Below, piece after piece: positions 12,216-13,489 of a DNA stretch of 64,000 nt. Numbering within the stretch: the first letter of the stretch is position 1; every line of letters starts with the position of its first letter. The notes beneath the pieces were generated by a model that did not search any database, was not told the DNA's origin, and saw nothing but the letters and a program-made list of their open reading frames with translations. This DNA comes from Mesodorylaimus sp. YZB2_4 (lineage: Eukaryota; Nematoda; Enoplea; Dorylaimida; Dorylaimidae). The DNA lies in the NCBI GenBank assembly GCA_030248295.1, contig JASANH010000220.1, forward strand, positions 124,001-188,000. The letters are read 5' to 3'. The translations under genes were made by a program, and so were the position numbers.

Positions 12216-12263
12216 ATGGCCAGCGCAGCGTCAGCCCAAGAGCAAGGGCAAGTGGCCAGAACT

Positions 12264-12330
12264 GTTCCAAATTTACGAGATGCTGCAAAATCTGAGCTAC
12301 AGCGACAAGCCCGACTACGACTGGTCAAAG
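12264..12330 (+). repeat. Copy of last-exon segment inserted in exon 1
   Basis: This 67-base stretch repeats 13267-13339 with two mismatches in the first 54 bases, then a six-base gap and a few changes. Here it is read in a frame shifted by one base relative to the kinase frame at the 3' end, and it runs directly into the kinase start LVKERWRVVDKIG. Confidence 0.85.
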
Positions 12331-13266
12331 AACGGTGGCGTGTGGTAGACAAAATCGGAGCGGGCGGGTTCAGTGTCATCTACAAGGTTGAAGAGGTCAA
12401 TACGAAGGAGCAGTGCGCCATGAAGGTGGAGTCGAAAAATGATACAGCGGCAGGGATCAAAATGGAGGTGAGTCCAAGCACTTGAGACCGAGATAGCATG
12501 CTGAAAAGAGTGGGGGCGGCCTTTTAGGTAGCCACATTAAAGATGCTGGCCGCTCGAAAACTGCCGCAGCACGCTTGCGAATACTTGGGTTGGGGCGAAG
12601 TCGAGTCTTTCCGTTTCGTGGTCATGCAACTGCTGGGACCAAGCCTACGCCAGCTAGTTCGGAGCACCCCCATGAACGATTCACGGTTGGTACCACCGTA
12701 CGGCTTGGCGGGCAGGCTTTGGAAGCTATCGAAATTCTGCATCGACTTGGGTTCATCCGCCGGGATATCAAGCCTGGAACCTTTGCCATAGGGGCAAAGG
12801 AAAGCGATAGGCGAAATGTTTACATGTTGGACTACGGCCTGTGTCGGTAAGCAGTGGTTCTCTGGACGGGTCAGCTTGATAACAGATGCTGTTTCAGGCA
12901 GTTTATCCGTATAGACGGACAAATGCGCCCACCGCGGACGACAGTTGGCTTTCGAGGCACCCCTCGCTACGCATCGATCAACGCGCACTTGCGCAAAGAA
13001 GTTGGACGACACGATGATTTATGGTAACTCCTAAAACATGAAGCTTTCAAAAATAGAAGTGGTGTGTTTTAGGAGTTGGTTTTATATGATTATTGGCTTT
13101 CGAGACCCTAACTTGCCCTGGGGCGCCATCGCTGACGAAGATCGGGTAATCGATTAAGGAAAAGAAAACGGGACTAGAAGAACCTATCTTTCCTGTTTCA
13201 GGTCTTGAAGGTGAAGCAAGAGACGCCTGCAGCCGCTTTGCTGAAAATCTTTCCCGAGCCCGAGCT

Positions 13267-13339
13267 GTTCCAAGTTTACGAGATGCTGCAAAATCTTAGC
13301 TACAGCGACAAGCCCGACTAACGTTACGACTGGTTTAAG
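13267..13339 (+). repeat. Source copy of the duplicated segment, in the last exon
   Basis: This is the ancestral position: in kinase frame it encodes FQVYEMLQNLSYSDKPD, followed by the premature TAA and RYDWF. It has six bases (around the TAA) not present in the exon 1 copy. Confidence 0.85.
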
Positions 13340-13489
13340 CAGCAACTACAGAAGACTGAGCAACGGAGCGGGTCCTTGGACGAGCATCCATTCGACTGGG
13401 AACCTGGCGGAAAGTATTTCGATCGGCGCGAGAAGTTCGAGAAATTCGAAAGGCTTAACGAAGACGATTCCAGTATTGCCGAAGGGTGA

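Follow-up and report, generated by a model that had tools for sequence, protein, structure and literature searches.

A TTBK-Type Kinase Pseudogene

On the evidence of its sequence, 12216..13489 of the window (the whole 64-kb stretch of DNA analysed here) is a TTBK-type kinase pseudogene. The original prediction had already read it as a decayed kinase, and a frame break in exon 2, a stop in exon 5, the altered HRD and Asn of the catalytic loop and relaxed evolution along its branch bear this out. The features discussed below are the following.

12216..12467, + strand: exon 1, with the native N-terminus, the insert and the glycine-rich loop
12256..12324, + strand: 69-nt insert, a copied part of exon 5 lying one base off the kinase phase; site empty in five paralogs
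12322..12325, + strand: TGGT common to donor and target, at the right junction of the insert
12528..12846, + strand: exon 2, with a frame break between 12665 and 12671 and RRDIKPGT in place of HRDIKPGN
12898..13023, + strand: exon 3
13073..13145, + strand: exon 4, followed by a low-scoring donor splice site of the next intron
13202..13489, + strand: exon 5, the last exon, which contains the donor segment
13259..13333, + strand: donor segment of 69 nt, lengthened later by six bases
13319..13325, + strand: place of the six extra bases (ambiguous), with the in-frame TAA at 13319-13321; neither the copy nor any of the five paralogs has the six bases

A search of the genome (145 Mb in 1067 contigs) with one protein of the family returned 154 matches, TTBK- and CK1-like sequences pooled. 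Placement in the TTBK family of the CK1 group was tested on the close paralog L002, which is far nearer to TTBK1 (E = 1.5e-83) than to the best CK1 (2.9e-37); from the pseudogene itself two of the five pieces gave Pkinase hits, both under the Pfam cut-off. L002 is also the sequence to which the pseudogene has its smallest dS (0.81), the values for L003, L004, L005 and L010 being 1.47-1.60. These five paralogs, in which the five exons are laid out alike and exon 1 can be read, form our comparison set, while L007/L008 and L013 (no exon 1 match) and L012 (match downstream of the site only) were left out of the exon 1 comparison. The catalytic loop reads RRDIKPGT in the pseudogene and HRDIKPGN in five of five paralogs, so that the pseudogene departs from TTBK by the loss of the His of HRD and of the Asn in the catalytic loop; its frame is broken as well. 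TTBK1 has DFG, whereas DYG is found in L002, the four other paralogs and the pseudogene.

Several further observations concern the surroundings of the gene and the rest of the family. L012 and L013, which belong to the same kinase clade and lie on other contigs, give decayed-looking tblastn matches with gaps, frame changes and one stop. The window holds more TTBK-like genes or remnants at 9271-10527 (- strand) and 43121-44462 (+ strand), the exon 2 tblastn match of the latter crossing a stop, and an open reading frame at 14188-14580 (- strand) resembles, by eye, the C-lobe of a tyrosine-type kinase. Genome matches to PF01060, a family typical of nematodes, number 27; with the kinase matches they would point to a nematode. 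An Rfam scan of the window returned no matches, and a spliced-leader search (RF00198) gave none either, nor did its controls.

A 69-nt Insertion within the Native N-Terminus

Exon 1 and the last exon share a direct repeat (12255-12317 and 13258-13320; 63 nt, 94% identical), and beyond a six-base gap the match continues through TACGACTGGT. Setting aside the six extra last-exon bases, 65 of the 69 bases at 12256-12324 match 13259-13333. The near-identical copy of the original prediction, placed at 12264-12330, is therefore real, and its two mismatches in 54 hold for 12264-12317, but its borders need revision: the copy starts further left and ends before 12330, since from 12325 onward (TCAAAGAACGG) the bases are native exon 1 and common to L002. 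Since TGG occurs on either side, the border of the insert can itself be shifted by 3 nt.

The site is empty in all five of the close paralogs whose exon 1 can be read. There L002 runs from AGGGCAAGTGG directly into TCAAGG, or, with a longer right flank, into TCAAGGAACGGTGG, while the pseudogene has the same 11 left-flank bases, then the 69-nt copy and then TCAAAGAACGGTGG; relative to L002 no target base is missing. At the protein level the five paralogs have QVV(K/N)(E/G)RWRV, which in the pseudogene has become QV, 23 residues and VKERWRV. The insert enters 13 codons past the native ATG, giving 13 native residues, 23 new ones and VKERWRV. MAFFT scattered the insertion over several gaps, and the reading as a single event rests on the exact flanks. 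From the empty site in the paralogs and the exact flanks in L002 it follows that, as judged from the paralogs, 12256-12324 was inserted cleanly, as 23 codons, into a paralog-like N-terminus. Relatives have an empty site and a template can be identified nearby, as is expected of a templated insertion.

The copy is read one base out of phase with the kinase frame, as had been proposed, and the two translations differ accordingly: exon 1 reads ARTVPNLRDAAKSELQRQARLRL, while the last exon reads PELFQVYEMLQNLSYSDKPD, a stop and RYDW. In the exon 1 frame the insert amounts to 23 stop-free codons. A frame-shifted copy of the size that had been suggested (about 22 residues) is thus present; it does not form the N-terminus fused to the P-loop, however, as it sits inside a native one.

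Source of the Insert

A whole-genome DNA search with the exon 1 stretch hit two places, its own position and, at E = 1.6e-19, the last exon; a third match was not found in the whole genome at E up to 1, in a search that skips very common words. Own last exon and insert agree at 65 of 69 bases, while the corresponding counts for the paralogs are 54 (L002), 52 (L003), 48 (L005), 47 (L004) and 46 (L010), so that no better source is seen than the last exon of the gene itself, as the original prediction had it.

Two of the four mismatches show the paralogs in agreement with the copy (the first base A of ATT/ATC in five of five; CTG in four of five, the fifth having CTC), indicating that the donor changed there. 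At the other two, four of five paralogs agree with the donor and L003 has the CCAGAA of the copy; a change in the copy is the simplest reading of these sites. Three of the four copy-donor differences fall on silent third positions of the kinase frame, for which the chance probability is 0.11. The occurrence of CCAGAA in L003, and its absence from the present donor, would also suit a template other than this last exon, namely another recent duplicate or an allele that is now lost. Given the gap between 65 and 54 matching bases, and a genome search in which no third matching place emerged, we regard such a template as unlikely.

The six bases around the premature TAA are lacking in the copy and in all five paralogs, and the earlier suggestion that the copy predates their arrival agrees with this distribution. 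The donor would have gained them after copying, or else the copy was taken from an allele without them.

Relaxed Evolution and Timing of the Insertion

The pseudogene carries two disabling lesions, the frame break between 12665 and 12671, which adjoins a C run and could be a sequencing error, and the in-frame TAA at 13319 in exon 5. With sites polarised by four unanimous outgroups, and 86 ambiguous differing sites dropped, 21 synonymous and 88 non-synonymous changes fall on the pseudogene branch and 24 and 12 on that of L002 (Fisher p = 4e-7). Pairwise dN/dS is 0.29 between the pseudogene and L002 and 0.18-0.19 between the pseudogene and the four other paralogs, while L002 compared with the same four gives 0.06-0.08. 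At the level of inferred substitutions, these values demonstrate a loss of constraint on the pseudogene branch.

Nevertheless, the absence of nonsense substitutions counts against a long-dead gene. The 154 inferred substitutions in 289 codons created no stop, against 6.2 expected under random placement (P = 0.0018), a test in which 29 further sites are unresolved and the lesion sites are excluded, the TAA having arrived with the six bases and not by substitution. This deficit suggests that the frame long stayed open and that the gene broke late; for most of the branch an open frame seems to have been kept under loose or shifted selection. The difference between copy and donor is about 0.029 per branch (0.008-0.074) and the pseudogene branch since the L002 split measures 0.178, so that the insertion would be about 0.16 times as old as that split, within wide limits (0.04-0.42). 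Possibly the gene was still coding when it received the insert.

Does the Insert Have a Function?

The original prediction saw a chimeric N-terminus in the making. In a functional sense this view finds no support, as the gene shows no net constraint, no splice site in the insert scores well and the amphipathicity of the insert is unremarkable. The idea that selection kept the insert, either as a new N-terminal extension or turned into an intron, draws on its length (69 is a multiple of 3), its stop-free frame and the nonsense deficit described above, by which the gene was perhaps coding at the time of insertion. Yet the best splice scores within the insert are -3.5 (donor site) and 3.0 (acceptor), under the minima of 2.4 and 5.0 among the 20 paralog introns from which the scoring was built, and on these grounds the birth of an intron was rejected; the pseudogene's own intron-4 donor site scores just 0.1. 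A helical extension was likewise rejected, the amphipathic moment of the insert being equalled or exceeded in 1778 of 5000 shuffles. Splice scores, amphipathicity and branch constraint thus lend no support to a function, and retention by selection appears quite improbable. To the same low degree we would credit a related scenario, in which the chimeric exon 1 is expressed and selection for a time kept a TTBK-like protein whose catalytic residues are altered and whose extension, 23 residues rich in arginine, stems from its own C-lobe DNA read in another phase, the frame break and stop being recent, allele-specific or errors of assembly. The insert was probably neutral, and the gene presumably yields no protein product today.

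Copied coding DNA read in a shifted phase also characterises gains of coding sequence that resemble overprinting; the present case differs in being a single stretch of 23 codons, in a decayed and presumably untranslated gene. Among the paper titles listed there was no close precedent for a phase-shifted intragenic duplication, which is not a claim that none is in print.

Other Local Duplications

As a control, local duplications were sought with a length of 40 nt or more, an identity of 85% and a spacing of 100-5000 nt, with the low-complexity filter on. The 64-kb window contains one direct copy, the exon 1/last exon pair, and one inverted copy. The 31 non-redundant blocks of kinase-family loci, 111,454 bases in total, hold two direct copies, the L010 tandem repeat and one in L035, and in five 10-kb control stretches (50 kb) there are one direct copy (L052, 40 nt) and two inverted ones. 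Non-tandem direct copies of at least 40 nt therefore number one each in the 64-kb window, the 111 kb of kinase loci and the 50 kb of controls. In L035 a segment of a kinase exon is copied directly (1719-1780 and 2271-2332; 62 nt, 95%, 552 nt apart), the second copy lying about 240 nt past the stop codon; related genes elsewhere match this piece at 87% or less. Short local copies look like an ordinary class in this genome, in a small sample.

The next 25 or so bases beyond the L035 copy resemble, by eye, a further partial and degraded copy. The L010 repeat (2262-2461), close to the C-terminus of that kinase paralog, is made up of short coding units rich in proline and serine. An inverted repeat in the window (62465-62561 and 63074-63167) is 88% identical over 98 nt, with arms about 0.5 kb apart. 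The window also has a 159-nt direct repeat at 95% identity whose copies lie 22 kb apart (6823-6981 and 28926-29083), perhaps a dispersed repeat.

A Probable Templated Insertion and Its Possible Mechanism

We consider it probable (about 0.8) that one past event of templated insertion copied 69 nt of the last exon into exon 1. A break or stalled fork between GTGG and TC would have exposed a 3' end, able to pair through TGGT with the CTGGT of a donor situated about 1 kb away in cis, or on the sister or homologous chromosome. The paired end would then have been extended leftward over the donor and then ligated to the opposite end of the break, where homology is minimal or absent (one G). The junctions, with TGGT at the right and one G at the left, fit such donor-primed extension of a 3' end followed by joining, although a 4-nt match at a junction can arise by chance. 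Having 23 codons and no stop in the exon 1 frame, the insert could have been tolerated by the gene. Afterwards the donor would have acquired an I-to-V change, a synonymous change and the six bases with the stop, and the gene would have ended as a pseudogene.

Candidate pathways for such an event are polymerase-theta end joining, aborted synthesis-dependent repair and template switching. The genome has a theta-like gene: a family A polymerase lies on C13 (five matches, four of them above the cut-off), and among solved structures this polymerase is nearest in sequence to polymerase theta (7.4e-36). PMC5068794 attributes templated inserts in C. elegans to theta, and PMC4490562 ties theta to indels in natural isolates. 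Inserts made by theta end joining or template switching are likewise short, direct copies of nearby sequence with microhomology at the junction, and here as there no mobile element is seen. In contrast to theta inserts, however, the present one is 69 nt long, has its template 1003 nt away and came with no visible deletion relative to L002, whereas in C. elegans most inserts of known origin have a template within 20 bp; among all deletions with insertions there, the template lies within 20 bp of the break in 37-44%, and more than 1000 bp away or on another chromosome in 2-3% (PMC5068794). With the distant source and no missing target base set against these proportions, theta in particular is not established as the agent.

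Unequal crossing-over between tandem kinase copies, fusing one at its 3' end with the 5' end of its neighbour, might be entertained given the numerous paralogs and the further kinase pieces in the window. Such a fusion predicts more last-exon sequence than is present, whereas upstream of the insert we find the native exon 1 start, with 11 bases equal to the L002 left flank; a gene fusion is disfavoured by this flank and seems very improbable. An artefact, conceivable in a single assembly whose frame break adjoins a C run, is just as remote a prospect, as four of 69 bases and the six extra ones distinguish the two copies and the insert lies exactly at a site that is empty in paralogs.

Implications

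Under templated insertion, the locus looks like a well-preserved case of an ordinary DNA-repair duplication, unusually legible; no new gene or mechanism is demonstrated. With donor, copy and empty site all readable in one genome, the event can be placed in sequence relative to the decay of the gene. Two non-tandem direct copies of about 60 nt, the exon 1 insert and that of L035, turned up in about 225 kb, so that such events seem not to be rare in this genome. Local templated insertion can thereby give a gene a stop-free, phase-shifted stretch of protein sequence.
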